Below are positions 11,581-54,341 of a DNA stretch of 64,000 nucleotides, one piece after another (the stretch's first letter is position 1; each line of letters starts with the position of its first letter). The notes under the pieces were generated by a model. It saw only the letters and a list, made by a program, of their open reading frames with translations. It did not search any database and was not told the DNA's origin. The stretch comes from Pyropia yezoensis (taxonomy: Eukaryota; Rhodophyta; Bangiophyceae; Bangiales; Bangiaceae): assembly GCA_009829735.1 (NCBI GenBank), contig CM020618.1:24909346-24973345 (forward strand). Direction: 5' to 3'. A program made the translations under genes and the position numbers.

Positions 11581-13935
11581 ATGTCGGACCCCCAGGTACC
11601 CGGGGGTGAGGACGACCTCCTGATTGAGGAGGAGGAAGAGGTGATGGTGGACGACGTTCCCGTCTCTGCCACCGCTGCCGAGTGCTTCTTGGCGAGCTCG
11701 TCCGAAGACGAGGGCGACCGGGTAACCGTCCGCGTGGCCCCGGAAGGTGCGCCGGGCGGTTTGTCGTCCGTGTGCAGCGGCACGACGGCTCCGTCGGGTG
11801 GCGGGCAACCGCGTGTAGCGGCTGCCTCTACCCCTACTCCTCCGGCGGCCCGGATGGCTTCTGTCGCCGGTGCCGGCGCGACTCTACCTCAAGACGGCGT
11901 CGCCGGCGTGGCGGATGGTCGTGGCCGCACCCCAGCCGAGCCGGCGGGTCAAGACGGCGCGGGTGCCCGCCCGGTTGGTGTGTCCGCGTCGGCGGGTAAC
12001 GGGTCTACCCCTGCCGCCCCCGTGGTGCCCACGGCGGGCCCGGGTGGCGGCGATGCTCTGCCCGCGGTGCCGCGGACGCTTGGTGGTCAAGAAATGTCTA
12101 CCCCGATGGCAGTGGATTCCGGGAGCTACTCCGGGCGGGCGCCCGCCCTTCTTCTTCCTCCTCGGCCCCGTTCACCTCCGGCACCGGCCCATCTGCCGGT
12201 GGGGCATCCCCCGGCGCCCCCTATTCTTCCTGGTCCTGCCCGGGTTGCCCCTTTGGGTGGCGGTGTCGCCTTGGCGGCGGGTCCACCCGCTATGTCGATG
12301 TCCGACTTGGTGGCTCGGGTCCGAGGCCTGACGGTGCAGGAGTCGATGGAGTCTGCTGGGCGGATGCGAGTGGACTTCCACCAGCCGCGTCCTCCTGGAG
12401 AGACCTCCCGGCGCGTCAAGGTGGACCCGAGTTGGGAGCGGGAGTTGGTGCGGCTGGTCAACCAGCCGAACGCGGTCCGGGTGGAACACCATGGGATCCT
12501 GAGTCAGCCGGACGACCGGCATGCGCAGCTCTGGCGCACCCGGGTGGGGCGGGGTGAGGTCTACCTCGACCCCGCCTTCGGGGTATGCGACTTGATTGCC
12601 CCCGCGTTGCCGCGGGAGGTTGACTACCCGGATAGTGCTCGGGGGGTTGCGGCGGCGGCGGAGCCGGTAGCGTTTGGGGAGACGGTGGGTGATACCGGCC
12701 GGTATCCCGGCTTTGAGTACTTCCCGGGGGTATCCCCGTACCTGACGTTGACGGCTCCGTACCAGCCTACGGCGGGTTTGAAGTCAGCGTCGAGCTGGCG
12801 ACGCAACCATGGTGTCATGGCGGATGCGTTCCGCACCGATATAACGTGTGCGTTGCAGACCGGTAACGGTCGCGCGCCGGTGTACACTGCCGTGCGCCCG
12901 CCTCTGTGGCAGGAGGGGTGGGAACCCGCCCCTGCTTTCCGGTTTGACACCGGCTTCCGCCTCCGATACTTCGGGAGTGTGCTGGCCTCCCGGCCGGTCC
13001 ACCCGTTGCAGGGTACCTTCACCCTTGAGGTTACCATCGGGCAGGCTTCCTCCTTCTTGCTGTCGGCCCGCCGGCAGGGGCGCCTGTTTCATCTTCCGAC
13101 GGGTGTCCGTCGGCACATCGCGCAGTTGGGCGTGGACATGATAGCCGCCAAGACCGGGTTGGCCTGGGAGTTCGAGGCCCTGCTGGCTGTTCACGATGCC
13201 GTGAACTGGGCTGGGCTGTTGGCCCTTCCCCCGTACCGGGACCCGCAGGCTGGGGCTTCCCCCTTGCCTCGTCACTCGTTGCGTATCCGGCGTACTCAGC
13301 CGGGTGAGCCCAATTGCCATGGGTGGGCGTCCACCGAGGCTGTTGCTGACCTGGGTATTCCCATGGTTATCCATGACCCTCTTCAGGTCCTTGCCCCGTG
13401 GTTCGGTAACCCGATACCGGCGGCGGTTGGCCGTCGTCCCCGAGAGTGGGGCTCTGCGGGTGGGGGGCGTAAGGTGTCCCGTCGCCGGGTTTACGTCGGA
13501 GCCCCTTCGGTGGGGTCCTACCGGGCCTCGTATCAGGCGCCACCGGCTCCGGTGGTGGCCGTGTCGGCTCCTGTGGCTCCTCTGGCTGCGACAGTGTCAC
13601 CTTCTGCCTCTGTCATGCCTGACGGGGGTCCTCGTCCATGGTATGAGGGCGTTGACGCCCTTATTGCCCGCGCGATGCGGGAGGGTCTCTCTGTTAGCTG
13701 GGGGGATATCCCCCCAGGTGCTGCGCTGGTTGGGTCAGCGCGTTGCTTCGGTGGCGTGCTTAACCGCCTCCAGACAGCTCTGGAGGACGTGGAGGCTGGC
13801 CGCAGCACCCTCGTTCAGCTATGCACCGAGGTAACTCGGGTGATTGACCGTCGTGAGATTGCCGACCGGTGGAGCATGGAGGTATACGCGCTTACGCGTG
13901 AGTGGCCTCCCTCGGGCAGTGGGTCTACCCACTGA
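11581..13935 (+). CDS. Antisense third ORF of Gypsy-A, unknown function
   Basis: This 784-aa protein is encoded opposite to gag-pol. It starts MSDPQVPGGEDD followed by a very acidic run (EEEEEVMVDD). Residues about 60-250 are Pro/Ala/Gly-rich and disordered. A folded-looking part runs from about 255 to 640 and contains FGSV at 464-467, then a block ending RRQGRLFHLP near 500 and a helix with AVHDAVNWAG. These line up with the antisense ORFs of Gypsy-B and Gypsy-C. Residues 640-784 are again Ala/Val/Pro-rich, ending in a short helical segment. I recognise no family; it is not gag, env or a known enzyme. It ends tail-to-tail with pol, 452 bp apart. The frame has no break although gag and pol do, which suggests it is under independent constraint or simply escaped damage. 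Confidence 0.7.
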   Translation: MSDPQVPGGEDDLLIEEEEEVMVDDVPVSATAAECFLASSSEDEGDRVTVRVAPEGAPGGLSSVCSGTTAPSGGGQPRVAAASTPTPPAARMASVAGAGATLPQDGVAGVADGRGRTPAEPAGQDGAGARPVGVSASAGNGSTPAAPVVPTAGPGGGDALPAVPRTLGGQEMSTPMAVDSGSYSGRAPALLLPPRPRSPPAPAHLPVGHPPAPPILPGPARVAPLGGGVALAAGPPAMSMSDLVARVRGLTVQESMESAGRMRVDFHQPRPPGETSRRVKVDPSWERELVRLVNQPNAVRVEHHGILSQPDDRHAQLWRTRVGRGEVYLDPAFGVCDLIAPALPREVDYPDSARGVAAAAEPVAFGETVGDTGRYPGFEYFPGVSPYLTLTAPYQPTAGLKSASSWRRNHGVMADAFRTDITCALQTGNGRAPVYTAVRPPLWQEGWEPAPAFRFDTGFRLRYFGSVLASRPVHPLQGTFTLEVTIGQASSFLLSARRQGRLFHLPTGVRRHIAQLGVDMIAAKTGLAWEFEALLAVHDAVNWAGLLALPPYRDPQAGASPLPRHSLRIRRTQPGEPNCHGWASTEAVADLGIPMVIHDPLQVLAPWFGNPIPAAVGRRPREWGSAGGGRKVSRRRVYVGAPSVGSYRASYQAPPAPVVAVSAPVAPLAATVSPSASVMPDGGPRPWYEGVDALIARAMREGLSVSWGDIPPGAALVGSARCFGGVLNRLQTALEDVEAGRSTLVQLCTEVTRVIDRREIADRWSMEVYALTREWPPSGSGSTH

Positions 13936-14386: not shown

Positions 14387-17300
14387 TTACAGTAAGCGGC
14401 GTCGCCTCATGTAAGGCATGAGGAGTTGGCGGGGTATATTCGCCGCCTGTTCCCAGGTGGGTGAGTCGTGTCGGACCCACATAACCTTGACGTACCAGGG
14501 TCCTGGTAGGTCCGGGTCGGTGTGTCCGACCACGCTCTCTACTTGGTATGGAATCCCATCCGGTCCCACCGGGTCATCTGACCGGTGGGTTGTAAGAGCT
14601 TCGTGTAGCAACCCAGCCGGTACCGGCTGAGGCTGTTCCGGCTTCGGAGCAGGTGTCACATCATTGAGGTTGATGCGTTGTATCTCCGTATCGGAGTGCA
14701 GGATGACAGAGTGATCATCTCTGTGTAAGATCTGGTACGGTCCCTTCACCGGTTGCATAAGCTTGTTCCCTCGGAACTTCTGGTGTCTGATGTAGACCCA
14801 GTCACCTGTTACCAGGGTTGCGTTGCGTACCCGTAACCGGGCGTCAAAGTTCTTCTTGTATCGAAGTTGTGTACGGTCAAGGGCACCCTTGAGCTTGGGT
14901 ATTATCCACGATAGCTTGGCCAACCAAGCTAAGTGGATCCGTTCGGCCGGTCGGCCCTTCGGTATATCATACCGAGTGCATCTGCCCGGTGGCACCGTCA
15001 GGTTACCGACGCCCATCGGCATGACCCATTCCAGGGGGGCAATGGTGGTACTCCGGTGGGGCCTGGCATTGTATGCCAGGGTCAAGACGGACAGAAGCCT
15101 GTCCCACGTCTTCGTGTGTTCCGCCACATAGCATTGGAGCATCTTGACGATGGTGCGGTGAACCGCTCCACCTGCCCGTTGGACTGCGGGTGGTAGTCGG
15201 ATGCCCGACGGGGTTCGATACCGAACATGCCCAGGACCTTAGTGCAGAATGCTGACGTAAGGTTTGCTCCGTTATCGGAGAGGAGTTGCTTCATTACTCC
15301 GTAAGCACTGATCCAGTGGTCAACCACTGCGTTCATGATGGTGTAGGCCGTATCGTCCGGGATTGCTACTGCCCGTGACAGCTTAGTAAAGCGGTCCGAC
15401 ATGACCAGGATGTACCTGTTCCCTTCTTCCGTTACCGGAAGCGGTCCGAGTATGTCGATAGCGGTTTGCTCGTTGGGTCCATCCGGGGGGAACAGTTTCA
15501 TAGCGGATGCCCGCCTATGAAGACTCATGCGATTCCGTGCGCACGGGTGGCATCCCCGCACGTGGTCGATTACGTCGACGGACATTGCTGGCCAGTAGAA
15601 GAACCTTCGCATTGCTGCGAACATGTGCGAACCCCCCGGGTGTCCGGCTGTGGGGTTCTCGTGTTCTCGTTCCATGACGGCCTGCCGCAAGGACACGGGA
15701 ACCACGACCTGATGCCGTCCATCGGCGGGTGCCCGCCGATATATGAGTCCGTCCTCGTTCTCGGAGAAGATGCCGGCCGTGCCGGCCAGGAGGTTAGCAC
15801 GATGGCGTTTACAGTCATCGTCATTGGCCTGTGCCTTGCGGAAGTCCGCGAGGGTCAACGGGCACGCAAGGTGTGCCATGGTATGGTCAACCATACCTTG
15901 GGTAGCATTACCCACCATGCACACCGGTACCACCGGGATGTCTTCGTCCACCTGTCGGGTATCCCCGCTTGGGGTATCGAGTCGCGACAGCGCGTCCCCC
16001 AGATGATGGGTGGAGCCGGCCTTGTATATGGTCCGGTAGTCGTGCTCGGCCATCTTCAGCCTCCACCGGGCTAGCCGACCGTGGCTGTCAGAATCCTTGT
16101 CACCAAAGTTGAGAAGCCATCGTAAAGGTTCGTGGTCGGACCTTACGATGAACCTGGAACCTTCCAGGTATGGCCGGAGCAGTTGCACTGCCCATATGAC
16201 TCCGAGGCACTCGCGCTCGGTGGCACTATAGTTACGCTCAGCCGGGTTGAGTGTCCGGCTGAAGTACCCTACCGGATGTAGGTCCGGGATAGCATTATCG
16301 GTACCGATGATGGTCTCTCCCTGTAGCAGGGTGCATCCCACTTGGGTGTCGCAGGCGTCGACGTCGATGACGAAGGTCCCGCGTCTATGCGGCAACGCAA
16401 GCACGGGTGGGGCTAGCAGAGCTTGCTTGAGCAGCTCGAATGCCTCTCCCTCGCTGGGCGAGGGAGGTTGGAGTACCTTTGGCAAGGCACTGCTCGTCAG
16501 AACCGTTAACGGTTTGGCTATACGAGCGAAGTCCTTGACGAACCGTCGGTATACGTTGCACATCCCCAGGAAGCTTTTCAGCTGTGTCTGGGTGGTTGGG
16601 TATTGCGCATCCCGGAGTGCCCGAGTATTAGCTTCGAGCACTCCCAGTTTACCTGGTGTGATCTGGTGACCCAGATACTCGACTGTCTGCTGGAAGAAGG
16701 CGCACTTCTTCAGGCGCAGGGTTACCCCGGCGTTCCGCAAGAGGGTGAGTACCTCGTCGACATGTTGCACATGGTCATCCATGTTACGCGAGAAGACAAT
16801 GACGTCGTCCAAGTACACCAGGCAGTTACGCCACTTGACTCCCGACAGTATGATGTCGATGGCCCGTTGGAATGTGGCGGGGGCGTTGGACAATCCGAAG
16901 GGCATCCTTAGGAACTCATACACGCCACTGTGACAGACGAACGCCGTCTTGGGGATATCCTCTTCCGCCACTGGGATCTGCCAGTACCCGGCATTGCAGT
17001 CGATAGTGGTAAACACTGTGGCTTCCCCCAGCGAGTCGATACACTCGTCCATCCTTGGTAAAGGGTATGAGTCTTTCTTGGTAACCAAGTTGAGGCGTCG
17101 ATAATCGATGCAAAACCGAGGGGTTTGATCCTTCTTCGGTACGATCACGACTGGGGCACCCCACTCCGACATCGAAGATCGGATCACCTTAGCTTCACTC
17201 ATCCTCTTCACTTCCCCATCAACGATCTCTCGTTGCATAGGTCCCGCACGATGCGGTTGCGACCGCGCTGGTCGAGCACCTGGTACCAGGTCTATACGGT

Positions 17301-18572
17301 GTTGGGTTGCCCCAATGGTACCCAGCGCCCCACCGGTCCATATGACGTCGTGCTTTCTTAACATCCGTCGTACCCATTCAGCTACCGAAGGGGGAAGGTG
17401 GTCGAGGTCAGCCTCGGCCAGTGCCTTCAAGGCTTCTTGGTCCTTTGGCGGCATGTCCGCCGGAGCCGCCGATGGGTTGGGCTTCCCGTCATCGGGTTGC
17501 TGTCGCTCGGTGGTCTCGGCGACCGCCAGCACCTCAAGTGGTTCCACTTGACCTTCCTTGTCAGGGGTAAGGATATCTCCTTCGTAGAGCTCGGCAATCC
17601 CGAGGATAGTTCCCTTCGGGAGGGTGACTGCCTTACGGCGATAGTTCGCCATCACCAGCAGTGATGACCCCCCTGCTGGGAGGTCTGCGATACCATTGGC
17701 CATGGTCAACCCATGGCGCTTGTAGGTTCGTAGGTTGGACTGAACTCTGTAGATGCCTGCGAGGTTACAATTAACCGGGAGGACGGTCTCCGATAGCGGC
17801 TCAAAGCGAGTCCGCTTGGCCAGCCGGAGTGTCTTCGGTTCTACGCTTGCGTATACCTCAGCCACGTTAGCGTGGCTCCCTTGTAGCGTCAGGTCCCTGA
17901 CGATAACTGTCTGTCCTCTCTTCGTCCCGTCGGCCTCTTGCAGCTCGACGGTCCTCCGGCCCGGCCGGATTGCATCAACGTGAACGTTGATGAAGGTGCA
18001 CCCCAATATGCAGGGCACAGATAGCGTCTCACATACCAGGAAGTCAACTTCCGTAGTAAGCTCCCCGATGGTGACCTGCAGCGACATCGCTGCGGTCGCA
18101 CGAATGAGACGACCATTCGCATCCTTGATCGTTGGTCCCCGAGCAACTCTGACTCGCGGGAGCCACTTGTCCGGGAGGGTATCCTTCCGGATCAAGTTAG
18201 GTCCAGCCCCTGTATCCAGTACGGGGTAGTACGACCGGGTCGACTGTGGGTCAACCCCAGTGTGGCTGATACCTTGAAGTTCTCCAAGGTGAACAGTACG
18301 TGGCCTACACCGATATCCGGTGTAGCTCGGGCATCCTGAACAGGGCCCTTGTCTGGTTCCATGTGACGGGGCTTCCCGTCCTCTCCTCCCAACCTTGGAG
18401 GTTGGTCATCAATCCCCTGACGCCGTGTCGTCGGGGCCGGAAGGTGTACCCGGGGGTTGATGCGGCGTCGGCTCAACCGCGCTCTCCGTGGGGCTTTCCC
18501 CGCGGCAGTCCGGGGTGGCTTGCTAAGGTTACCCCAGCGACCCCGTGTCGTCCTTCCTCTTACTCGTTTCCC
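14387..18572 (-). pseudogene. Gypsy-A pol: protease, RT, RNase H, integrase, chromodomain
   Basis: Reading starts in the -1 frame at the slippery site (18572). The protease active site LDTGAG is at about 18219-18202. RT has FCIDYRRLN and YLDD (near 16815-16800). RNase H follows (FVIDVDA... and HHLGDALSR). Integrase has an HHCC finger (ending CHPCARNR), then DILGPLP and DNGAN. A chromodomain-like tail (WYVKVMWVRHDSPTWEQ) at about 14480-14420 places it among chromoviruses. The protein is broken by two single-base frameshifts: one just before the protease motif (about 18230) and one in the integrase core (about 15150). Otherwise it has no internal stop. Confidence 0.92.
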
Positions 18573-19449
18573 GTGCTCGGCCGGGTACTGTCCTCCGGGG
18601 CATCCGAGGGAGGGGGTGCCTCCTCGACTGCCAGTACTCCTCCTGGAGCTTGCTGCCTACCCGGTGCCGGGTCTCGGGCGGGATACCCACCCATGGATGC
18701 CTTGCGTTGCGCCGCTGCCCGTCGGGACTCCTCCGGGATGAGTGGGCATGCGGACACCCAGTGTTGGGGGTCTCCGCACAACATACATCCGGACGTGCCG
18801 GCCGTCCCGGGCGTCCGCGTCGGGTCGGCTCCATAGGTCCGGTTGCCTGCCTCGGGCGCCCGAGTGCCCGCCCCTCGGTAGGCCTTGGGTCCCGGTGCCA
18901 GCCGAAACATGGACTCCCCCAACCGGTTGGCTTTACCAGCGATGTGCGGAGGTGCCTCCGTACGTACTGCCCATGTCGGCAGTGGCTGGTGGGGGTTACC
19001 CGTAACCGGGGCATACCCCGTAGTCCGCACATACGGGACGCGCCGACCCGCTCCCTCGTTAACCTGGAACTGGGTCCCAGCCGGGGCGATGTACGCTACC
19101 GTACCATGCTCATCAATCACCGGCGTCGCCGGTAGCAACAGGTTGCCCTGTTGGTCGACTAGAGGTTCATCCTCACCGGTAGGGGTGTGTTCGGTCGCCA
19201 CCAGTACTGGTGCGGCCTTACGTTCCACCTTCTCTTGCCTCGGTACCGGGGTAAGACTGGGCTTGCCTCCCTCGCCCTTGGGCTTTGGGGCCAAGGCGCA
19301 TTCCGGGTGTAGCACCCGGTAGGCGTCCCCTAGGGACTTTCACATATGCATCAGTCGACTGAAGTTCGTCCGGGCCGTATTGGCTCCCCGTGCGGATATC
19401 CGCACGTAGTTGGGTACTCCTGCGAACAGGATGGCCCGTAGTTCCCCTT
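18560..19449 (-). pseudogene. Gypsy-A gag, C-terminal part
   Basis: This is the part of gag downstream of the Gypsy-B insertion. It contains one CCHC zinc knuckle (CMLCGDPQHWVSAC), the nucleocapsid RNA-binding motif, in a Pro/Arg-rich context. One in-frame TGA at 19342-19340 breaks it. The frame ends with the codons for Gly-Asn-Glu and TAA at 18562-18560, overlapping the frameshift site. Confidence 0.85.
18566..18572 (-). promoter_or_regulatory. Predicted -1 ribosomal frameshift site, Gypsy-A
   Basis: The minus strand reads G GGA AAC in the gag frame, a classic X XXY YYZ slippery heptamer, followed by GAG and the gag stop TAA. The -1 frame is open from here into pol. The same heptamer occupies the same position in Gypsy-B and Gypsy-C. 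A downstream structure was not evaluated. Confidence 0.8.
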
Positions 19450-19988
19450 TGTAGCAGTACTCCCAAGCACCAACCCCGAGTCAGGGAAGGAAGAGGAGTA
19501 TTGCCGATATCCCAACTTGGGACACCGGAAGCAAGCACCTCCACACAGCCGAACACGGAACTTGCGTGTGGTGAGCGGGTCCACTCACCAAGGCACGAAC
19601 AAGATGTGTCGGAGCCAGACGGTGTTTTCTTGCTTGGCCAGCCAAGGTGGGCCCTCCCCGCCTTGCTGTCCCTCCTTATCAACCCTCCTCACACCCTCAC
19701 GCAACCCCTCAAAACACTCAGAAAATGAACCCTCAAACAAACCAATCATATCACTCCACATGCAAAGAACTCAAAGCGTAGAAATCCGTCTGGCTCCCGT
19801 GCAAAAATCCCAAGAAACAAATACCAGCAGCATTACCCTGCTCTAGTATGTCGGAAGTCCTAGTCGAATTTCCGTCCAGAAGTCAGAAGTTTCACCATCG
19901 TGAGTCGGGTGAATTTCGACTTCCGGTCAGGTCCACTTGACCCGAATCTTCAAAGTATTGGTACCGAATTCCGGCCCAATCTCCCACA
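19450..19988 (-). repeat. Gypsy-B 3' LTR
   Basis: 539 bp, TGTAGCAG on the plus-strand left edge and CTCCCACA on the right edge. The adjoining plus-strand TTTCCCCCTTCTC (19989-20001) is the polypurine tract on the minus strand, which fixes this as the 3' LTR. Confidence 0.95.
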
Positions 19989-20993
19989 TTTCCCCCTTCT
20001 CAAAAGTCCAGCCGTCCCGGTGGACGTCCAATCAGCGCGAGTCGCAGTGACCGGGAGAGGAGGATGCAATTCCCGAGTTGAGATGCAAAGTACGGTGCAT
20101 CGCTGGCGTCTAGCGTGCACCAGGGTTACGCCGGGGTTGCACTCGCGTCCGGCGGGGCCCTCCGGGAGAGGCAGTCCCTCTCCGTGGGGTGCGCTCTCTG
20201 CCCTGACACTGGGTAGAGGAGCCCCCTCCACGCGAAACAGGTGTGGGGGAAAGTCGTCCCCCACCTGGTCAGGGTGCTCCACGGGTGGACTCACGTGTGG
20301 GTGAGCCCCCCTAATCTGGGTGTCGGCGTACCTCCGCCACACCCCCTGCCCCTCAACTGGAGGAGTAGGGCGTCGACGTTCTCACTCGGAACGTCGACCT
20401 GCACCTGCCCCTTCAGTTGGGGTACGGTTGCTCTCGGGGGGTCGGGTTGTGTCCCCCCCTTCAGCTCGATCCACCCCCAGCTGGCTCTCTGCGGGGTGTT
20501 CCTCACTCCTTCCCCCCCCTTTCTAGTCAGGGTTGAGGGGTGTGCGCACCCCGAGTTGGGGGTGTTGCACTCGGTCGCCGGCGGTGGGACTCGGCCGCCG
20601 GTGCGGGGTCTTCTCTCCCCTTCGTGTGTGCGGGCGGGTGTGTGCCTTCCCGCCGCTGCTCCCTCGCGTCGGCGGGTCTGTCTCTTCCCGCCGTGCGGTT
20701 GGTGTCGTTGGTTGGGGTGGTGTCTTCCCCCTTCCGCCCCTGTGTCGGGCGTCTTCGTTGTCGGTGGGGGCGTGGGTTGTGTTCCCCCCCCTTTGTCCTC
20801 GTTGGCGGGGTTGTGTCTTCCCCGCGCTGCCCCTTGTGTCGGGCTTCTTCGTTGTCGGTGGGGGGTGTGGGTCGTGTCCCCCCCCCTTGCTCTACCTCAC
20901 CGAGTCGGTCAAGGTTGGTTGTCGTCGGAGGGGGAGCGGGTCGTGTCCCCCCCCGTGCTCAACCTCACCGAGTCGGTCAAGGTTGGTCGCGTG
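19989..20993 (+). promoter_or_regulatory. Leader of the Gypsy-B antisense ORF, with imperfect tandem repeats
   Basis: About 1 kb without a start codon in good context. From about 20560 it is made of T/C/G-rich imperfect repeats. A ~93-bp unit containing TCTTCGTTGTCGGTGGGG recurs at about 20750 and 20843. A ~66-bp unit containing CTCACCGAGTCGGTCAAGG recurs at about 20896 and 20962, just before the ATG. The frame of the ORF stays open upstream to about 20241 without an ATG that I would choose. No clear TATA box was seen. Confidence 0.5.
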
Positions 20994-22910
20994 ATGGCGG
21001 GTGAGCCGAGTCGGCCTTTGTCCCCGTCTCCGACGTCCCTGTCGGACAAGCGACGGACGGGAGAGGAGGCCCTTGGGACTGAGGAGTCTCTCAGCCGGGG
21101 GTCGGCCATGGAGACGACTCGTCCCGGGCGAGGGTCGGAGGCGGCCGCCTCAGCCGTCCCCGCCCCATCACCTCCTACTGCCCCCTCGGCCGTGGTCCCA
21201 CCGGGGGATGGGTCTTCCAACCCGGTGGCGGAAGGGGATGTGACTCCCATCCCCCGCCTTCCTGAGTCACGGCTGCTACTCCCGCCGCGGCCCCGTCCTC
21301 CTATGGGGCCCCGAGCCTGGGCGCCTCCCAAGTCAGTCGGGGAGCTTCCCGACTGCAAGCTCAAGGATGTCTACTTGATCATCCCCGAGCCACGGCGGAC
21401 CGACGTATGGTACCGCCGGACTCGTCGGTACCCCAACCAGGTGACTCTACCTGATGGGGTGGTCTGCGACCTACCAGCGCTACTCTGCCTGGCGGACGCG
21501 CCTGAAGTCCAGGCGTTGTCAACCTCCCTCGCCTTGGGGTCGGGCGACAAGGAGATCGACGACACCCACGCGGTTGTGTCTACCGAGTGGTGTGCCCTTC
21601 CCCGTCCCTACCTGGGCGGAGAGGACGCCCACGCCCAACACGGCGTGGTGCGAGAGGAGTTCCGACTCCGGGGCTCCTCGGGCTTCCTCATCCACGGGTC
21701 GCGGGTGGAGTTCACCCACGTACCTCTGGAGGAGCGTGAGCACCAGTACCCTTTTCTCCCAGGGTGGTGGGAGACAGTGGAGGTACCTTGTGGGTTTCCG
21801 GCTCGGATCCCCCTCCTCGTTGCCTACTTTGGCTCCGTGCTACGCTCCAGCTCGGAGGGTGGCCGGGTCTTCGCCTACCTCGCCACGCACTGGGTGGTCG
21901 TGGTGGCTCGGGGCTGGTACTCCGATGTAGTCCATCGGGGTTACCTGTGGCACCTCCCACCGGCTCTGGTGGAGGGTATGGAAACCCTTGGCTTCCACTG
22001 GTTAGCCTTGGGCGCGGGGGACCTGGCTCCGTTCCTCCTTAAGGGTATGGTCACCCTGCACAATCGACTCGATTGGGCGCAGCTGGAACCCTTCCTCCGC
22101 CGCAACAAGCGTCCAGAGCCGGGGTTGGAGAGTGAGCCACCCCGGGAGTTCGTCCATGTCACCCATACTCTGGTGCAGGGACAGCTGTTCTTGCGTGAGG
22201 GGTTGGGGGACTCTTCCCTTCCCTACGCAGAGGGGGTTACTCCCTCTACGTCGCCCCCTGGCTCTGGGTGGGCGACATCATCGGCGACGACTCGTCGTGG
22301 TGCTCATCGAGGAGCCCCTCGAAGCCGCGGGCGAGCTGTGCCGACGACTTCCCCGCGGGTCGCGACTCCGACCTCGGGGGGTGTGGAGCCGACTCAGGCT
22401 CCACCCTTCCAGTTCCTCGAGCCCTTCCCCGACGTGGCGTTGGGTTCGCTACGGGTCCGAACTCCGGTACCCATGCCGATTGCGCGTGGCGTTGGCGAGA
22501 TGCTTCCCAACTTGGGAGCCATCATGTATGACGCCACGGTGGAGGCCTCACTCGTGGCCTCCCTTGACACGTTGGCTTGGGTCACCCGGCGTGTCAGTCA
22601 CTTCCTCGCGTCGGGCGACTCAGCCACGGCGCGACAGTCATTGGCAGCTGAGGTCACTAGCCTCGCGGTTGGACACGAGTTTGTCCAACGGCTGCTGTCG
22701 ACTCAGCAGCAGCTTCCGCGTCACGGAGGGAGTACCTCCGGACATCTATCTTACGACGGGGATGGGTCCGCGAGTCGGCGGGCCCCTCCCAGTGCTTCCA
22801 CTCCGGGGCCCTCCCGAGTGGGTTACGCCCCTCCGCTACCGGCCTACGACCCTGGGGGTTCGTGGTCGGGCGGTCCCTATAGTGGTGGGGGTGGCCATAT
22901 GGAACGCTAG
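20994..22910 (+). CDS. Antisense third ORF of Gypsy-B, unknown function
   Basis: This 638-aa protein is encoded opposite to gag-pol. It starts MAGEPSRPLS. Residues 1-120 are Ser/Pro/Arg-rich, and the core is about 125-385. The core contains an RPYLGGEDAHAQH stretch, WWETVEVPCGFPA, FGSV at 279-282, LATHW, then a GYLWHLPPALVEGME segment and a helix with LHNRLDW. The same order occurs in the Gypsy-C protein with high similarity and, more weakly, in the Gypsy-A protein. A second conserved helical block around LPNLGA (about 505-570) is also kept in C. The tail is Gly/Ser/Pro-rich. There is no signal peptide or membrane segment, so it is unlikely to be an envelope protein. It ends 128 bp from the end of pol, tail-to-tail. 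Function is unknown. Confidence 0.75.
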   Translation: MAGEPSRPLSPSPTSLSDKRRTGEEALGTEESLSRGSAMETTRPGRGSEAAASAVPAPSPPTAPSAVVPPGDGSSNPVAEGDVTPIPRLPESRLLLPPRPRPPMGPRAWAPPKSVGELPDCKLKDVYLIIPEPRRTDVWYRRTRRYPNQVTLPDGVVCDLPALLCLADAPEVQALSTSLALGSGDKEIDDTHAVVSTEWCALPRPYLGGEDAHAQHGVVREEFRLRGSSGFLIHGSRVEFTHVPLEEREHQYPFLPGWWETVEVPCGFPARIPLLVAYFGSVLRSSSEGGRVFAYLATHWVVVVARGWYSDVVHRGYLWHLPPALVEGMETLGFHWLALGAGDLAPFLLKGMVTLHNRLDWAQLEPFLRRNKRPEPGLESEPPREFVHVTHTLVQGQLFLREGLGDSSLPYAEGVTPSTSPPGSGWATSSATTRRGAHRGAPRSRGRAVPTTSPRVATPTSGGVEPTQAPPFQFLEPFPDVALGSLRVRTPVPMPIARGVGEMLPNLGAIMYDATVEASLVASLDTLAWVTRRVSHFLASGDSATARQSLAAEVTSLAVGHEFVQRLLSTQQQLPRHGGSTSGHLSYDGDGSASRRAPPSASTPGPSRVGYAPPLPAYDPGGSWSGGPYSGGGGHMER

Positions 22911-23038
22911 AGTCAGCGGTCGAACGACTTGTTCTTTCCTTGGTGAGAAGAGTGGTGGGTATTCTTCTCGTTTTGTATTGTGCCATAGTCGGCTTTGTTA
23001 GTAGAGAATCTTTGAAGAACCATGGTATGTGTTTGTAC

Positions 23039-28830: not shown

Positions 28831-29126
28831 CTCCACAAGAGTCACGTGGAGTCAACCAAAACGACCAAACGGTGTCCAGAGTCGGGGATCGTCAGCTAGG
28901 GAGTTCCTAGAGCACGTTCCACCCCTCCACCTGCCTCAAGGAAGGCGGTGAGGTTTCCCGAAACTCCGGGTCTCCCACCAAGACTCACGGTGGCCAACCT
29001 CGTCGCCCAGCGAACGCTCGGAACGTAGGCGAGTCGATCGTGTCACCGGAAGTCTCGGTGCCGAAGGGGGAGAGGGGCCAACTTGGTCCCGTCTCCGGTC
29101 AAGGGAGGTACCAAAGTCGATATCCT

Positions 29127-29686: not shown

Positions 29687-29691
29687 CCCTT

Positions 29692-43663: not shown

Positions 43664-43686
43664 TTTGGTGGAGCAGCAGGGGACAG
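43664..43686 (+). other. Gypsy-C primer-binding site
   Basis: TTTGGTGGAGCAGCAGGGGAC directly follows the 5' LTR. It is the same site as in Gypsy-A and differs by a base change from the GGTGGATCAGC of Gypsy-B. Confidence 0.65.
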
Positions 43687-43782
43687 AGGTAAGCTTTACC
43701 TCCGGGTGCATCCGGGTGTAGGGGGCCCTCTGTCTCAGAGGAGCGGTGGACTTGGACCGTGTCATACGGATCGTTAGCCAAC

Positions 43783-45715
43783 ATGGCTAGCTCGGACCCC
43801 CCGTCGTCCGGGGAGTACACGGGTGACCCACGTACTTCAGTGCCTTCGAATACTGGTGAGACACAGGTGGGTTTACCTGGGGTCGCAGAGGGACTAGAGG
43901 TCCCTCAAGCCAGCAGGACTGGAAGTGCGGGCGGGCAACAGGCCACCCCGACTCAGTCGGGAGTTCACTCGGGTGACACTTCTGATGTGGGTGGGCCGAA
44001 GTCTGGCCACCGTGTGGTACACTCAACGGGAACGTCCCAAGGTGAGAGGACTGTCCCCGCGAGTTCCACTCGGGTTGGAGCCAAGTTTGGCTTGGAGCTG
44101 TCGCCAACTAGGCTTTCGGAGGACGGCGGACCTCCGTTAGTCGGCGATGGGCTCGCGCCCATGCCCCCGGTTGAGACCCCTGATGATCGTGGTTACCCCT
44201 CAGGTGGACTCCCGGAGGCGGACCGAGACTCAACTGGAGTCGACAATCCACTCCTCGCGGAAACTGTCCGTCGGGAGGCGACCAATGTGTTACGGCAGAC
44301 TTTGCCGGACCTGGTGGTCACGATGACGAATACTTTTTTGAATCAGATTGTGGCGAGTTCGCCAGATGGCCTCAATGTCCAGACCGGAGTGGGGCTTTCG
44401 AGCCCACAGACGAAGGGGGAATCCCTGCCTACGCCTGTCTCGGGTCGCCCCGAACCGGAGGCGACCCCTGTGACTCCCAACGAGGGAGCCGCACCATTCT
44501 CGGTGGGGCGCACGCCCTTCACGGGGGAGTTCCCCTCGGAAATGCCGATGGCTACACCGAGCTCGCCGCGGCAGACGACAGGCACTGCGGGTCAACTCAC
44601 CCCATTGCCTCAGCGGCTTTTCCCTCAACGTGAGGTGCCGCCTAAGATCCAGGTAGCCAACCCAGTCTACCAGAGGATCTTTGACTGTGAGACCTACGCC
44701 CTCCACAACAAGTCGGTGGCGTACGGTCCTATTCAGACCCGAGCTATGGGACGGGCCAAGAAGAATGCACTTCACTCTTTTGAGCACAAAGAGGAGTGGG
44801 ATGGAACTCCCCCCCTCCGTGTCTTTGAGCTTCTACGTCGTTTCACAAACGCCTGTGACGACAATGCCGTAAGTGAAGGCATGGCTTTCTACATGCTACA
44901 GGAGTTTGCCAAGGGCGACGCACGGACAGAGCTCATGTCCGTCATGCCCAGTTCCTCAAGTGGAGGCGCTGGTGAGGTGACGTCCTACTTGGAGCTCGTC
45001 AACTGGTCGTTGAGATCCATGGTGTTGGCTTCTCAAGTCGAGGAGTTTACGCCAGCTCATCAGGAAGAGACTGAGGACGAGTCGTCCTTTGCGGAGCGGG
45101 TCCGTAAGCTCAACAGTCTTTGTGAGTTCCTTCATCCCCAAGCTGTAGTGAGTGTCGGTTTGTGGAGGGACTCCATTGGTCAGTCCGTATGGAGACCCGG
45201 GAGCATAATACTGCCCGGGCGACCCTGGCTGAGTTGGCTAGGTTCGCCTACCGCAGAGGTGAGGCCTACCGCAAGTTGCTGGAGGAACAACGCCAGGAGC
45301 GTCAGGCCGAGTTGGCCAAGGAACGAGAGGAGGCGCGCCAGGCCAGAGAGCTACGAGAGGCACGCCGTATCCGCAAGAATAGAGTAGTAGCTGCGTGGGA
45401 GCTTCCTAGGGTAACTCATCTACTTCCCAAGTCGGGAAGACTCCTCCGGGAACTGACCATCGGTGTTGGAACTGCAACTCCGATGGACACTGGGCATATG
45501 ATTGCCCTATGTTGAGTAAACGCATTCAACACCTCGTGAAGAATGCGAATAGGAAGACGGATACAAACGAACTACCTTCGCGCCGCGAGGGTGGACCTCG
45601 ACCGGTAGTGGCGGTCGCCACACCCTCGGCGGAGGGGGCGGACACGTCGTCCTCGGACTCGTCCTCTTCCCCTTCGCCCTCGGATTCCGACGCCAAGGCG
45701 GCGGGAAACGAATGA
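43783..45715 (+). pseudogene. Gypsy-C gag, two frameshifts
   Basis: ATG at 43783 (MASSDPPSSGEYTG). A Pro/Ser/Thr-rich N-terminus is followed by a capsid region similar to Gypsy-B gag (DCETYALHNKSVAYGP against DCETYGLVNKSLTYSN). Frame changes occur near 45150 and between about 45390 and 45470. The CCHC knuckle (CWNCNSDGHWAYDC) lies at about 45470-45510. An Arg/Glu-rich helix (about 45280-45370) precedes it. The last codons are Gly-Asn-Glu, TGA at 45713-45715. Confidence 0.88.
45703..45709 (+). promoter_or_regulatory. Predicted -1 ribosomal frameshift site, Gypsy-C
   Basis: In the gag frame the sequence reads gcG GGA AAC GAA TGA. Slippage at G GGA AAC leads directly into the pol frame, which passes the ATG at 45712. 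Identical heptamer and spacing to Gypsy-A and Gypsy-B. Confidence 0.82.
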
Positions 45716-47881
45716 CCGTTGAAGCTGGCCGTCCTAAGCTCACAACGGCAGCCTCCGCCAAGTGGGTCAAGAGGACGAACCGACCGTGCCGGATACTGCG
45801 GCGACCTAAGGGAGTCCGCCCACCTCGGGTAGGACTCCCCAAGAACGTAAACCCACGTCGGGTCATCGCGGTGCTGACGGGTGAGAACTTCCAGGTGGCA
45901 GGACGGGTGCAACTTGCCCCCGGCCGCGCCTGTTGTGCCCGTATCGTACTTGATACCGGGTCAGGAGCCTCCTTGATACGCAAGTCGCTATTACCAAAGG
46001 AGATGAAGCTCCAACGCTGGAGGTCTAAAGCCGACCATATGATCGACTTCAATGGTGGGGTACTTCCCATTGTTGGTGCCGTGACCCTTCCAACTAGGTT
46101 GGGAACCCATGAGGTCGACGTGACCTATGGAGTAGTCGAGCATATATCCGTACCCCTGCTTCTGGGTACCCCGTATGTTGTAACACAAGTGCCTCTGATT
46201 TGTGGCCCGGAGTATTCGGTCAAGTTGATGAATGGGGAGACCATCCCCATCCTTGGTAAGGGAAAGTCTGTGGCTCCTGTGACAGTTTCACAGTCGAAGC
46301 CTGTTTGCTTCGTGAGAGAAGGGTTTACTGTTACCCTGCGTTTAGCCCGTAAGGTCAGGTTGCTCCCCAACTCGGTGGCGCACGTTGACGTTGTAACTGA
46401 TTATACGGGGAACGGGTTGGTGCACCCTCACCCCCGTCTTGCTCGTAAGCACCAAGTGCATGTTGCCCTTGGCACGATGGACTCCAAAGCTGGAGTCCTG
46501 TGGATTGTTCACGTGATGAACCTGAGCTCTTCGCCTAAGTACTTCAAGTCGGGAGCCAAGTTGGGCTATATCGACCAACATGAGGGACTAGTAGTAGCGG
46601 CCACCCTCAACGCGGGCGCGAGTAGCGACCCGAAGTCCGGAAAAGAGAAGAACCAAGCCAAGCTGGCCGCCTCCCCTCGGCGCCACGTGAATATGGAGAA
46701 TGTTCCACCCAGGTTGAGGGTTCAAGTTGAACGCCTCTTGGACCAATATTACAAGTTGTGGGATGGTCAGTTGGGACTCATGAGAGCCACCGAACACCGG
46801 ATCGAGTTGAAACTCGGTGCCCCCCCTATACGTCAACAACCATACAGGGGAGGGCCCCGTTCAAGGGCCCTCGTCAAGTAGCAAGTCGCTCGCATGGAGG
46901 CCCTCGATGTGATTGAGCCCAGCAACGCCGGGTGGGCGAGTCCGGTGGTCAATGTCCCCATAGTTGACGGGACCCCCCGGTTCTTTATCGACTACCGTAA
47001 GCTCAACGAGAGCACGGTAAAGGACAGTTATCCCCTACCTAGGATGGACGACTGTCTGGACTCTCTGGGGGAGGCTAACTTGTCCTCTACCCTACACTGT
47101 AACGCGGGGTATTGGCAAATTCCCATTGCCCCGGAAGACAGGCATAAAACTACCTTTACCTGTCACTGTGGTACCTACCAGTGCAAGCGACTACCGTTTG
47201 GACTATGCAATGCGCCGGCCAACTTTCCAGCGCGCCATGGACATGATTCTGGCCGGAGTACGGTGGCAGATCTGTCTTGTGTACCTAGACGACATTATTG
47301 TGTTCTCCCGAAGTCCGGAGGAACATAGTGGCCATCTTGGCCAGGTGTTCAAGCTACTTGCTGACGCCGGTGTGTCAATGAAGGCAAGCAAGTGCCACAT
47401 CTTTACTCAGGAGGTGGAGTACTTGGGACACGTTGTCCGTCCGGGGCGCCTCAGTGTCAACGAGTAGAACTTGAGAGCCATCCGTAAGGCTCAGTGCCCC
47501 CGGACCCAGACCCAGATGAGGAGCTTCCTCGGGATGTGTAATGTGTACCGACGTTTAACCAAGGGCTTCGCCAAGGTGGCGAAGCCGATGAATGAGCTAG
47601 TTAGCTCGACGCAACCGAAGAACCTGCCTCCCCCAAGTCGGGTGGAGCAGGAATCCTTTGAGACTCTTCGGGACCTACTACTGAAGCCCCCTATCCGCTG
47701 TGACCACCGCGCGTTGCAGTTCATCTTTAAGAAGGATTGCACGAAAACACGCCTCAACAGGTGGAGGGTGCGACTGGCCCCCTTCAAGTTTGATATTGAG
47801 TACCGTCCCGGCAGGCAGCGTGCCCTTGCCGACGTCCTTTCTCGGGTACCTACCGAGGGGCTGGACACTAACTCAGTGGTT
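45709..47881 (+). pseudogene. Gypsy-C pol, first part: protease, RT, remnant RNase H
   Basis: Protease VLDTGSGASLIRK near 45950. RT with FFIDYRKLNES (about 46980) and YLDD (about 47283). An in-frame TAG interrupts at 46879-46881, a frameshift lies near 47215, and a second TAG at 47465-47467. RNase H is mostly deleted: after LLKPP (near 47695) the text jumps to IRCDHRALQF, skipping about 75 codons present in Gypsy-B, without loss of frame. The end of the RNase H/linker (ALADVLSRVPTEG) runs into the insertion at 47882. Confidence 0.88.
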
Positions 47882-50376
47882 GATCGTCGGCGACCGGAAC
47901 CACGCGCGATGCGTTGCATCTCCGATTTTTGCCGCTGCAACGGGTTGCAATCGTTGCAAACCCCTGTGGCTCGCAATCGTGCGCCAGCTACTACTCGACA
48001 GACTCCTGTGCTGCAATGCACGTCTTCCGTTGAACTGCATTGTCTTTGCATGCATGTCAGTGCAATACAACCTTAATAAACTGCCTAGTAGCCACGCCTC
48101 TGAACGAGCTGCTGATGAATGGAGGTGGACAGCCTGCGGCCTCCGGCTCTGTGAAAACGGACTCCCCCACAACGAGCATTGAGCGGCGCAATCGTAGAAA
48201 TGACACTCCCAGCCTGTCCGATAAATTGTTCTGGGGCTGCCAGATCTCGTCGTCGGGGAGGTTTGCGCTTGAGCGACGTCCCCACACCTCATCCTGAGCC
48301 CAATAGGCAAGGGCTACCTGGAGGCATCCCGTCACGGCCACGCAGTTCCCCACGCCCGCGCTCACCACCGAGCTGATTCACCACAAAGGGCGTCTCCCTC
48401 GGCTCTGATTCTGTCCTGTTGCCATCAGAAAAGCGGATCCTGCCTTAAGATCTCACTCGACACACGCTGAGATCCATCGAACCCCCCCAGAGATCCCATA
48501 CTACCCAGTCCGGACGATTCTGCGACCAAGTCAGAGCATAATCGACTTGGTGCCGCAAACGCACACTAACGGCCCAGGCGTTCATAGCGGGGGGGGTGAC
48601 AACGCGGCGGGAGGGCCGTGGGGTTGTGAAGGGCGCGACGACGGCGCCGCTCCCTCTGCCGCTGCTGCTGCTGCAGCCGCTGCGGCTGAAGCCGCTGGGG
48701 GAATAACGGGAGGGGTTGTAGGCACCCGGCGGAGTTGGGGCGGCGGCGGCGGTGGCGGCGGCGGCGGCGGCGGTGGCGTCGGCGGCAGCGTTGCCGGCCT
48801 TGCCAGCGGCGGCGGGGGGGGGGCGGCCGAGCTGGGGGGGTGGGGCGCCGATACGAGCGCCGGCGGCGGCGGCAGCGGTGTGCGCCGCGGCATTGGCGGC
48901 AGCTTGGGCGGCGGCAAGTGCCGCGGCCTGAGCAGCCACGCCTTGGGCGGCGCCGTTGGCATGGGCGGCGGCCTCGGCGGCGGGTATGGGCATGTGGTGC
49001 ACCTCCGCACAAACCGCCCCCCCCCCCGCCCCCCTCGCACCACCAAGACCCCCCCCACCCTGCCGGCATCATGCCTGTGGTGGCGGTGGTGGCGGACACT
49101 GTGGCTGACGCGATTGCGGCCACGGTGGGCGAGGCGGGGGCGGTCGCGACCACGGTGGGCGAGGCGGTGGCGGCCATGGTGGCGGAAAAGGTCGCGGCCA
49201 CGGTGGGTGAGGCGGTGGCGGCCAAGGCGGCGGAGGCGGTCGCGGCCACGGTAAGGGGGGCTGTGGTGGTGGCGGTCACGGTGGGGGAGGCGGTGACGGT
49301 GGCGGCCATGGTCGCAAAGGCGGCGGCGGCCATTTGGCGGAGGTGGTGGCGGTCACGGTCGCTGAGGCGTTGGTTATCGCGGCTGCGGTGGGCAAAGAAG
49401 TGGCGACCACGGTGGCCAAGGCGGTCCCGGCCGCAGTGAGGGAGGCGGTGGCGGTGGCGACCACGGTGGCGGAGGCCATCGCGGTCGCGGCTACGGTGGG
49501 CGAGGGTGTAGCGGCCACGGTGGCGGGGGCGGCGGCGGCCACAGTGGCGGAGGCGGTGGCGGTCACGGTGGGCGACGCGGTTGCGGTCGCGGCTGTCGTG
49601 CGCGTGACGGTGGCGGCCACGGCGGCGGAGGTGGTCGCGGCCACGTTCGGGGAGGCAGCGGCCGTGGCGGCCACGGTGGCGCAGGCGGCGGCGGCTACAG
49701 AGGTGGAAGCGGTGGCGGTCATGGTGAGGGAGGCGGTGGCGGTGGCGGTCACAGTGGCTGTGGCTGACGGCGACGGTGGTGGGGGCTGTGGGCAGCGGCG
49801 GCGGTGGCGGTGGTGACCACGGTGGCGGAGGCGGCGGCCAGAGGCGAAAATGGGAGTGGGGGTGCGGGGGCTGGGGACGGCCGTGGTCGCAGTTGTCTGG
49901 GGCATACCTGCGTCTGCCCCCTCTGTCTGGCGCACGCCAGACACCGGCACTGTGCCCTGACACGAACACCGCATGTGGCCGTGTCTGTGTCGGTGTCTGT
50001 GCCGAGTATCTCGGTGATCGAGGTGCCCCGCCGCGGTGCACTATTGGCACTCGCCGGCGTGCGACGTGCTGGCAACTACCATTTCAATAAACATCAAGGA
50101 AAGTGCATAAAAATCGAACGACAATTCCACATGGACCGGAAGCGAACAGGCCGGCATCCGGCTGCGGCCGGATACTCCTTGCGATGCCTATTCAACTCAC
50201 TGCATGTTTTCTGTGCATTTCGCTCTGCATCGCGTTGTATGCGCGGATGCATAATCCCTGTACCGCGTGACTTTCACGGCTCTTGAGTACTGCTGAAATG
50301 GAGACACTTTACTGCAATTTTTGTATTTCAAAAGGGGTTGAAATGCGTGAAAAACATGCAGCGAACAGCAGTGGTT
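47882..50376. mobile_element. 2.5-kb GGC-rich insertion in Gypsy-C pol
   Basis: The insertion interrupts the pol linker between RNase H and integrase. The 8-mer CAGTGGTT is present on both sides (47874-47881 and 50369-50376), consistent with an 8-bp target duplication (hAT-like) or a chance overlap. The left end starts with an inverted copy, 21 bp, of the target sequence that follows the right end (47883-47903 against 50371-50391). No transposase ORF is present. Positions 48590-49830 are GGC/GGT-rich imperfect repeats, the rest is ordinary. It is probably non-autonomous; the class is uncertain. Confidence 0.6.
48590..49830. repeat. GGC/GGT-rich degenerate minisatellite
   Basis: Imperfect repeats of phrases such as GCGGTCGCGGCCACGGTGGGCGAGGCGGTG with 9-, 15- and 30-bp spacing. 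They give long open frames in all directions (for example Val-Gly-Glu-Ala-Val-Ala runs on plus, Pro/His/Arg-rich text on minus). I treat these frames as repeat by-products. Confidence 0.7.
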
Positions 50377-51966
50377 CCGGTCGCCGACGATGACATCCCC
50401 ATCGTGGGGGTAGTCACGCGCTCGGGTCAGGCGTTGAACCCCGAGGCGCCAGGGAACAAGAAGTACCTGCCCCTGTCCCTGGACGAGGTGGTGAAGGCCC
50501 AGGCCGAAGAATCCCTCTGCAAGTCGCACAGGGATACGCTAGATACGGTGGCAGAGACGCGGTTCTTTTTCGGAGACGATGGACTCCTCTTGAGGAGGGG
50601 GGTAATCCAGGGGACTGAAGAACTTGTCGTCCCCGCATCCCTCAAGGACAGTATCCTTGAAAGGGAGCATATCGCTCCCACAGGTGGACACCTGGGGTCC
50701 AGTAAACTGTACCAGACCCTGAGGACCAGGGACTACTGGCCGTCCATGGTGGTGGACAGTTACAGTTAGGTGGCTCCCTGCACAAGTTGTGCGCAGAACC
50801 GTCTGATGGAACGGCGGCCCACTACGGCTATGTTACTGTTCCCGGCCAAGGAGCCCTTTCCCGCGTTGGCAATGGACATCCTTGGGCCCCTGCCAGTGAC
50901 CGAGGATGGTAACCAGTACCTCCTGGTCATCTGCGATTGCTTCACGAAACTTACGCGAGCGATCCCCCTGGCAGAGGTCACGGCCATGTCGGTCGTGTCA
51001 GCCTTCTTAGATCACTGGATTGCCGCGTACGGCATCCCGGACAGTACACTGTCAGACAATGGAGCGCAATTTGCGTCCGTACTGTTTCAGGGAGTGCTGG
51101 ATATGTTCGGGGTTAAGGCACACTATGCCACCCCCTACCACCCACAAACTAATGGGCAGGTGGAGCGCTTCGACAAAACTATTGTTCGGCAGCTGCGCCA
51201 CTATGTGAGTGAGCACGTGAAAACGTGGGACCAATACATTTCTATTCTTACAACCGCCTACAATTCGCAGGTTCACTCATCTACCGGGACAGTACCCCTC
51301 GCTTTTGTGACCCCCCGTCGCGTGCGGTCTATTGCCGTACGGCGGCCGCTCCCAACTAGGGAGGCCGATGGCAGTACACCTACTCCCACTGAGAGTAAGG
51401 CGGAGTTCGCTGCTAGGCTCGAAAAACTCATCGCTCAAGTCAGGGCTGAGATGGACAAAGCGCAAAAGCGCTACAAGCGTACTTTTGACAAAAAGGTGCG
51501 TAACGCCAAGCACGTCCCCGAGCAGGGTGACTGGGTACTGGCTCACTCACACACCCCAACTGGGGGTAAGTTGGTGTTCCAGACGAAGGGGCCGTACCAG
51601 GTCCTTCGTACAGATGGACGGCGGTTCATCATCGAAAGTGACGATGGGGTCCGCATAGTAAACGGACAGGACGTGATAAAAGTTGCACCACCTCCTGCAG
51701 GCGAGCCGGCTTAGGCGCGTGCGCTGAAAGCGTGGCGCCTGCCTTCGCTACCTGCGGCCAAACAGGGCCCGCAGGAGTACGTGTTCGATAAGTTCATCGA
51801 CCACGGGTGGGATGAGGACACTAACCACCCCATGTTGAGGGTGCGTTGGTTCGGCTATAAGGCTACGGATGATACGTGGGAATGCGTGGAGGGTCTTCCT
51901 GCTGAGAAGGTCCGGGCATACTGCGCCCGGAATAATATCGACCCTAACTGCCTTCCCTCAACGTGA
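50377..51966 (+). pseudogene. Gypsy-C pol, second part: integrase and chromodomain
   Basis: The linker resumes directly after the insertion. Integrase HHCC finger (REHIAPTGGHLGS ... CTSCAQNRLMERR), catalytic core (DILGPLPVTED, LSDNGAQFAS, HPQTNGQVERFD) and the C-terminal domain follow. The chromodomain lies at about 51781-51930 (LRVRWFGYKATDDTWE). Two further in-frame TAG codons interrupt, at 50767-50769 and 51712-51714. The frame ends at TGA 51964-51966. Confidence 0.92.
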
Positions 51967-52077
51967 GGGAAGGCTACGTGGCAGTGCCAAGAGAGTGCTT
52001 CAAGTCGCAGTGGTACGCAGAGTGGCTTTTAACTACAGCCCTAACCCATACACTCTCACAACAAAGGCAGCGGCCAG

Positions 52078-54020
52078 CTAGGCACTCATGCTAGACTCTC
52101 CAACACCACGGCCCTCGCCCTCACGTGGAGGCGAGCGGCGCGACCCACGCCGATATCGTTCCCCACCCGTCAACGGGGGCGGCGGCTCCAAGTCGGAACC
52201 GTCGCGCCCCTCACGGTCGCGCAAGTGGCGTCGACCGCTGCTACTCGTCTGCTTGGTCTTGCACGCAATTTGGCGACGCAGACGCCGGGCCGACTCCGTC
52301 TCCGACGGGGTAGAGGACTCCGAGACGGAACAAGACAACTCGTCTTCCGACACGGAGGGAGTTCGCCGCGAGTGACGGCGACGACGGCGAGGAGGCGAGT
52401 ATGCCCGGCTCGCCCGACGCTTGCCGCGCCCAAGTGGGGCCGGCTGGGGCACAATCGACCCAATACGAGCTGACTCGGTTGTCATGAACCCCGCGACCGA
52501 CTCGAAACTCGCGGTCGCCACAACAGTACGAACGCGCTCCTCAAAATGAGGAGTCTCGGAAGCTTGAAGGGTTGCAGCCGACGCGGCCAACCAAGAAATG
52601 GTGCGCACCAACGTGGTGATCATTATCTCGGAGGTCAAGGGCGTGGCCGGCAGTATCAACTTGAGATAGACCATGAGGAGGGTGGCCCCCAAGTTGGGGG
52701 ACACCGGGTTGGATGTCTCAACAGCAACGCTTATCGGGATGTCTCCGTGCGGCTGGAATGGGACAGGAGGAAGCGGAGGGGCTCGCCGAGTAGGCGGAGC
52801 CCGAGAGTAACTGCGACCCCTATTCGGGGCCCCCGCAGTGGGTTTAGTCACGTAGCCATCGTGGGAGGGCGCGGCCACCACGATTGCCTTGTCCGGGGGA
52901 GGCGCAATGTAGCGTTCCCACCCGGTGCATACGGGTAGTCCCCGATGCCCAGCCCCTTATTGAGTACCACACGGCCGTCGTGAAGTTCTTGACCGACCCA
53001 GACGAACTGGCGAAGTGTGCCATCGTCCTCGGGCCCGCGGGAGGATCGGCGCAGCTTGTTCTCGATGCTCTCCCACTCGATGAGCTTATGGAGGCGCAGC
53101 ATCTCCTCAAGTAGAGTGACGTGTCCCGATGAGTACCCCTCAGCAACTAGCTGAGGGGTGAGCTGCTCCAAACCTTGGATAAGCCGGGGGGATAGATGCC
53201 AGAGCATCCCCCGCCGCTGGACACAAGACACCCAGGTCGACATGACCTCGAGGAGCCACTGGGTTGCCAACATGGCAAACACCAGATGGTCCGGGCTAGC
53301 CGACAACATGACGGAGCCGAAGTGGTCGAGCAACCGTGGTAGTAACGCCGGAAGCCCGTAGGGGACCTCGACTTGAGGCCACCACTTGGGCTTCTTGGGA
53401 GAGTACTGCTCCTTGCTAGCAGGTGACTGCTGCGGAAACTCGAGTTGAGCCGAGGTCACCAAGAAGGGACCTCGCCGGAAGTCCTTCTCCATCCGCACAT
53501 TAAAGTGATGAGTGTGCGGATCGACGTCGCGAAGGTACGGGGGGCGAGTTGCCACCGCGTCCCAAGTGAAGGTTGGCACGTCGCCAGTACCCCGGATAGA
53601 ACCCCCGCGGTCCACCATGGCCTTGGCCCGCTGCACGTCTTCGACCTCTTCCTCATCCAGGAAGGCAAGCTGGTCCGTCCTGAGGTCGGGAGGAAACCCG
53701 ACCCTACGGGGATACTTCTCCCGGAGGCGGTCCCAGACGCGACTCATCGCTGTGCCAAGTCGGCCACAGCGGAGAACCGTCAACTTCTCCTCATACGGAG
53801 GCCAAGCGGGGTAAAACCACCGCCCCAAGGCCTCTCGTGGAACAACGTGGCCCGCCTCCGGGGGAGATCCCGCCGCTAACCCAAAGCCGGGTGACGCGGA
53901 CGTCCCATCCCCCGGAGCGACGGCGGAGCCTCCGCCGGAAGTCCCGGCGGGCGCTGCATCGTAGGACATGTCCTCCATACGTTCATCCAAGGAGCCAGTC
54001 TCCACCCCCGGGGTCACCAT
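52078..54020 (-). pseudogene. Antisense third ORF of Gypsy-C, one frameshift
   Basis: Encoded opposite to gag-pol. The first ATG is 54020 (MVTPGVETGSLDERMEDM), giving 390 codons to 52848; a second frame (52881 to 52078) carries the rest, so one frameshift lies at about 52850-52880. The core has RPPYLRDVDPHTHH, WWPQVEVPYGLPALL, FGSV (F234), LATQW, RRGMLWHLSPRLIQGLEQL and LHKLIEWES, closely parallel to the Gypsy-B protein. The second frame has the SPNLGA block seen in Gypsy-B and ends in an Arg/Ser-rich tail (SPPRRRRRHSRRTPS). It ends 111 bp from the end of pol, tail-to-tail. Function unknown. Confidence 0.78.
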
Positions 54021-54306: not shown

Positions 54307-54341
54307 CGCCCCCTCGCATGGCCGACCGGGTCGGTCGGAAC

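Follow-up and report, generated by a model that had tools for sequence, protein, structure and literature searches.

Related antisense accessory open reading frames between pol and the 3' long terminal repeat of three diverged Ty3/Gypsy elements in the red alga Pyropia yezoensis

A 64,000-nucleotide stretch of the Pyropia yezoensis genome (assembly GCA_009829735.1, contig CM020618.1, positions 24,909,346 to 24,973,345), referred to here as the window, contains three diverged Ty3/Gypsy elements, A, B and C, each of which carries a long accessory open reading frame (ORF) between pol and its 3' long terminal repeat (LTR). gag-pol is read from the minus strand in A and B and from the plus strand in C, and the accessory ORF from the opposite strand in each. 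Element A spans 10631-31563; its 3' LTR (10631-10997) and 5' LTR (31198-31563), both on the minus strand, are 95.4% identical, and AGCAT flanks both sides. It is split by the insertion of element B at 19450-29686, whose 3' and 5' LTRs (19450-19988 and 29148-29686, minus strand) are 100% identical over 539 bp and flanked on both sides by CCCTT. Element C spans 43195-54823, with a 5' LTR (43195-43663) and a 3' LTR (54356-54823), both on the plus strand, that are 93.2% identical and have unlike flanks. Just inside the 5' LTR, all three elements contain TTGGTGGA(G/T)CAGC(A/G)GGGGA, which looks like a common primer-binding site.

ORF A (11581-13935, plus strand, 784 aa) starts at ATG 11581 and ORF B (20994-22910, plus strand, 638 aa) at ATG 20994; both are single frames, open upstream to 11479 and 20241, respectively. 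In the window copy of element C, the accessory ORF consists of two overlapping minus-strand frames, one at 52848-54191, open from ATG 54020 (part 1, 52848-54020, 390 aa), and one at 52078-52881 (part 2). The original prediction, made from the letters of the window, had described a single ORF at 52078-54020; its place and strand were right, and in this copy the single frame was not. Elsewhere ORF C is unsplit, forming a 724-aa open frame in 76 of the 106 listed genome rows and a 773-aa single ORF in locus L013. The distance from the LTR to the ATG is 583 nt in A, 1005 nt in B and 335 nt in C, and the stop codons of the accessory ORF and pol are 451 nt apart in A and 128 nt apart in B.

Pfam scans identified reverse transcriptase, RNase H and integrase in pol A (14387-18195, minus strand; two overlapping frames, 14387-15142 and 15082-18195) and in pol B (23039-27028, minus strand), the latter with an additional sub-threshold chromodomain. 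The pol A frame stays open past the break of the window copy in all six other A copies that reach this point within their loci. Part of gag A (18560-19315, minus strand) gave a weak zinc-knuckle match, and gag B (27067-28845, minus strand) a zinc knuckle slightly under the curated cut-off. gag C (43759-45387, plus strand) shares 57% identity with gag B over 178 aa and had no Pfam match in the profile scan. On the same strand, pol C comprises a protease part (45712-46881) with a weak aspartyl-protease match and an integrase part (50770-51714) recognised in the Pfam scan; it is broken between 46881 and 50770, where 24-base tandem repeats lie at about 49079-49764.

To place the window copies in the genome, 50 loci were fetched, one of which (L033) ends before pol. 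The accessory ORF and pol are arranged tail-to-tail in all 49 loci that have both genes, a set that includes overlapping duplicates and corresponds to about 40 separate genomic places, of which three are in the window; the layout that had been predicted for A, B and C was thus borne out. The structural class aORF-3R is characterised by a coding ORF that lies antisense to gag-pol in the stretch from pol to the 3' LTR, and all 49 loci have this form. The many copies and the conservation of the protein, seen in the codon-level analysis below, agree with this class as well: the genome holds at least 84 matches to ORF A, 70 to ORF B and 106 to ORF C, counted in lists of the best-scored candidates only. 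Among the matches listed, no in-frame stop was found in 68 of 84 rows for A, 59 of 70 for B (two of the 59 being one place) and 95 of 106 for C. Because the lists hold the best-scored candidates and young copies are intact anyway, these counts alone are no evidence of selection. Many C copies are near-identical to each other, with 86% identity to the window copy, the same score and the 724-aa open frame, a pattern that suggests recent amplification of a single subfamily.

Selection on the reading frame was assessed by pooled pairwise ratios of nonsynonymous to synonymous differences per site (pN/pS). These were 0.317 for ORF B (21 copies: the window and, after removal of overlapping duplicates, 20 loci), 0.329 for ORF A (8 copies: the window and 7 loci), and 0.359 and 0.457 for parts 1 and 2 of ORF C (8 copies: the window and 7 loci), compared with 0.199 (19 sequences) and 0.181 (7 sequences) for parts of pol B and pol A. 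In each region, including all four ORF regions, the coding frame had the lowest pN/pS of the six frames; the next-lowest (0.43-0.57 in the ORFs) was the opposite-strand frame that has the same wobble position, with 9-17 stops per sequence. In a null model, substitutions were redistributed within their trinucleotide context, with 500 draws per pair. Twelve ORF pairs, which like the pol pairs have common ancestry and are not independent, showed observed values of 0.24-0.52 against null means of 0.69-0.98; no draw was as low as the observed value in 11 of them, and 1 of 500 was in the remaining pair, the window against L011 in part 2 of ORF C. For six pol pairs, the observed values were 0.14-0.27 and the null means 0.72-0.77, with 0 of 500 draws as low in each. 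Across seven aligned A copies, identity is 80-93% in the intergenic spacer, where indel cells make up as much as 23%, and 90-99% in the ORF, which has a single bin at 13% indel cells; 12 aligned B copies have up to 33% indel cells upstream of the ATG and none in the bins from 21000 to 22899. As pN/pS is lower in the ORF frame than in the other five and lies below the context-matched null, we conclude from these comparisons that purifying selection maintains the accessory ORF as a gene, and that it is no chance product of GC-rich DNA. Selection had been proposed in the original prediction, and the pooled values of 0.32-0.46, well below 1, agree with it.

The three ORFs are diverged in sequence. 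In BLASTP comparisons, B and C share 37% identity over 280 aa (E 3e-44) and B and A 26% (E 6e-8); identity between A and C is 21% (E 2e-6). The scores of 151 (B-C), 41.2 (B-A) and 36.2 bits (A-C) compare with maxima of 26.2, 29.3 and 27.7 bits among 1000 shuffles each, and a B+C profile matched the A profile significantly over 236 columns (probability 93.8, E 1.7e-7). Judged by these sequence comparisons, the antisense ORFs of A, B and C are one protein family, as had been supposed from shared motifs despite the divergence. Integrase pieces are 61% identical between B and C, 52% and 37% between A and C, and 42% and 31% between A and B (longer pieces), so that ORF and pol give the same order of kinship: B with C, then A.

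Protein searches yielded 13 relatives of B and 6 of A. Among them are hypothetical proteins of Pyropia vietnamensis, four B-type (three of which are near-copies of one another) and four A-type, compared here as protein sequences. Identity across species is 44-60% for B-type and 33-51% for A-type relatives. Horizontal transfer aside, the A- and B-type ORFs are, by this comparison, older than the split from Pyropia vietnamensis. Two relatives, P0001 and P0015, derive from short ENA contigs of 2,658 and 2,873 bases, which may be transcripts.

The proteins consist of a low-complexity N-terminus rich in Pro, Ser and Ala, a core, a linker and a C-terminus. The B-type core carries the motifs D.H..H, WW..VEVP.GFPA, FGS, LAT.W and G.LWHL, of which the A-type core keeps FGSVL, G.L.HL and the H...W pair, in line with the FGSV, HL-type and H...W motifs that had been noted in A. 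The PNLGA block in the C-terminus is indeed common to B and C, where in C (part 2) it is joined by an Arg/Ser-rich tail. The conserved core is predicted to be helical at low confidence, and the C-terminus is predicted to be helical. With segment borders placed by fixed offsets, the linker has a positive net charge in all seven proteins checked (+1 to +10). A mean hydropathy of 1.6 is a customary threshold for transmembrane segments; no 19-residue window reached it in any of the seven proteins (maxima 1.22-1.57), and no signal-like N-terminus was found among them, A being highest at 0.94. No PDB relative of the proteins was found. The C-type tail in L013 has 40 Lys or Arg in 205 residues and includes LARKTKQKSS, which resembles the N-terminus of histone H3; this pattern occurs in one of eight C loci and is probably due to chance.

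The original prediction assigned the three elements to the chromoviruses, a label for which their sequences offer only the chromodomain-like C-terminus of the integrase. Such an end is present in B, at 20.1 bits against a curated cut-off of 25.1; the corresponding end of A had no Pfam match, yet is homologous to that of B; and in C, where the pol frame ends at the stop at 51714, the chromodomain-like residues lie past that stop and were read by eye. Chromodomain-bearing Gypsy lineages that are not chromoviruses have been described in the brown alga Ectocarpus (PMC12477816).

The arrangement of the accessory ORF has precedents. In plant Ty3/Gypsy elements of the Tat lineage, aORF-3R genes (Retand TRP28, PF04195; Grande GENE23; RIRE2) lie antisense between pol and the 3' LTR, are present in most copies and are conserved across species (PMC7264820; PMC11963269); they are reported to be transcribed from their own promoter, and the GENE23 product to be nuclear (PMC7264820). 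This plant precedent had been named before, and a fungal one, the antisense gene brtn between pol and the 3' LTR of the Gypsy element Boty (BcGypsy1) of Botrytis cinerea (PMC7264820; PMC8365987), had been left out. The algal ORFs share strand and place with the plant genes, but their host is a red alga, their elements have a chromodomain-like integrase end whereas Retand belongs to a non-chromovirus lineage, and their relatives (24-52% identity) are confined to the algal set. TRP28 (PF04195, Transposase_28) gave no match in 22 family members at E values up to 10, a result with which a distant relation is still compatible. To the fungal brtn, the ORFs are likened by layout, not by sequence. In human T-cell leukaemia viruses, antisense genes lie toward the 3' end (HBZ in HTLV-1, APH-2 in HTLV-2), HBZ being a nuclear regulator (PMC11963269), and the antisense promoter lies within the 3' LTR (PMC7264820). 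HBZ is retroviral, and its likeness to the algal ORFs is by analogy only. It carries a bZIP, and Pfam scans found no bZIP match in the algal proteins. Accessory genes on the antisense strand of LTR retrotransposons have been on record for a long time, with no function known for them (PMC7264820). In the open-access literature, a scope outside which most subscription papers fall, no antisense ORF was found described for LTR elements of red algae. The arrangement is known, and the protein family and host group were not met in that literature. The accessory gene described here is a selected, cross-species one in three diverged element families outside plants, and with one protein available in three diverged versions, the function of such genes becomes directly testable.

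By analogy with Grande GENE23 and HTLV HBZ, we tentatively propose that the antisense ORF product is a nuclear regulator through which the element controls its own expression, a reading that we hold with a little less than even confidence and rank first, ahead of an anti-silencing factor and, in third place, a late-cycle cofactor. Place and strand point to a separate transcript toward pol, which would start from a promoter within the 3' LTR or next to it. The product would enter the nucleus, bind nucleic acid or chromatin, and adjust sense transcription or the RNA fate of its own family, a model that follows proposals for plant aORF-3R proteins and reports on HTLV HBZ. Several observations weigh against this picture. 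The higher pN/pS in the ORFs than in pol indicates looser constraint, and seven aligned C copies show no contrast in divergence between spacer and ORF. The Arg/Lys density of the linker is 8-14% against 7-12% in the N-terminus, and lower than there in B and C; it does not clearly exceed the N-terminal value, which makes the basic linker a weak argument. The whole A and B proteins are slightly acidic (net -4). As predicted originally, no known domain is visible: Pfam scans found none in the antisense ORF proteins, including no nucleic-acid-binding domain, and structure prediction gave no confident fold. With still less assurance, it is conceivable that an antisense regulatory gene arose independently in Ty3/Gypsy elements of red algae, before A separated from B/C and before the two Pyropia species split, and that its protein, unlike anything recognised, steers the chromatin state or RNA of its family. 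If true, the layout with a backward-read regulator would have been invented independently once more, in addition to its appearances in plant Tat elements, fungal Boty and deltaretroviruses.

The strongest competitor of a nuclear regulator, though an unlikely one in our estimate, is a factor that would counteract the silencing of its own family by host chromatin or small RNAs, a silencing perhaps provoked by the antisense transcript itself via double-stranded RNA. Convergent genes predict overlapping complementary RNAs, and small interfering RNA from antisense transcripts has been discussed (PMC7264820). The protein also evolves faster than pol, as an arms race would give; however, no positive selection was seen, pooled pN/pS is far below 1, and Pfam scans revealed no known suppressor domain. 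Somewhat less probable still is a cofactor of the late cycle, acting in the assembly of particles, in the import of the pre-integration complex into the nucleus or, beside the chromodomain-like end of the integrase, in the choice of target. The ORF accompanies pol with the same order of kinship, and a role in nuclear import has been suggested for such proteins (PMC7264820), but a protein needed together with Gag-Pol would most simply be encoded on the sense transcript, and no domain or fold supports this role.

The remaining explanations fare worse. That the antisense RNA is functional and the protein incidental is very improbable: non-coding antisense RNAs do occur in other retroelements (PMC7264820), but codon-level selection on the protein frame and the conservation of both protein types across species contradict it. 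A protein of env-like or membrane type, such as those of Athila or gypsy-type elements, would suit the position between pol and the 3' LTR; the antisense strand and the lack of a transmembrane segment in all seven proteins, none with a signal-like N-terminus, largely refute it, and we consider it very improbable. Hardly credible is a chance ORF in GC-rich DNA, for although the window has many long low-complexity ORFs that are probably of this kind, frame-specific purifying selection and conservation across species and element families contradict it here.

LTR retrotransposons predominate among the repeats that make up 48% of the P. yezoensis genome (PMC7423979). The accessory ORFs also show that a conserved protein family can sit nameless within the repeats of a sequenced crop alga. 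A pair of direct repeats at 6810-7124 and 31628-31942, 93% identical, encloses element A, and the nesting seems to be of B inside A and of A inside an outer, third element. By its motifs, the ORF at 7803-9131 looks Copia-like. An inverted copy of the C-type LTR at 41743-42213 (93% identical), directly before element C, is probably a solo LTR, with a more distant relative (82%) at 10036-10508. An ORF of 995 aa at 2243-5230 resembles an M1-type aminopeptidase in its motifs.

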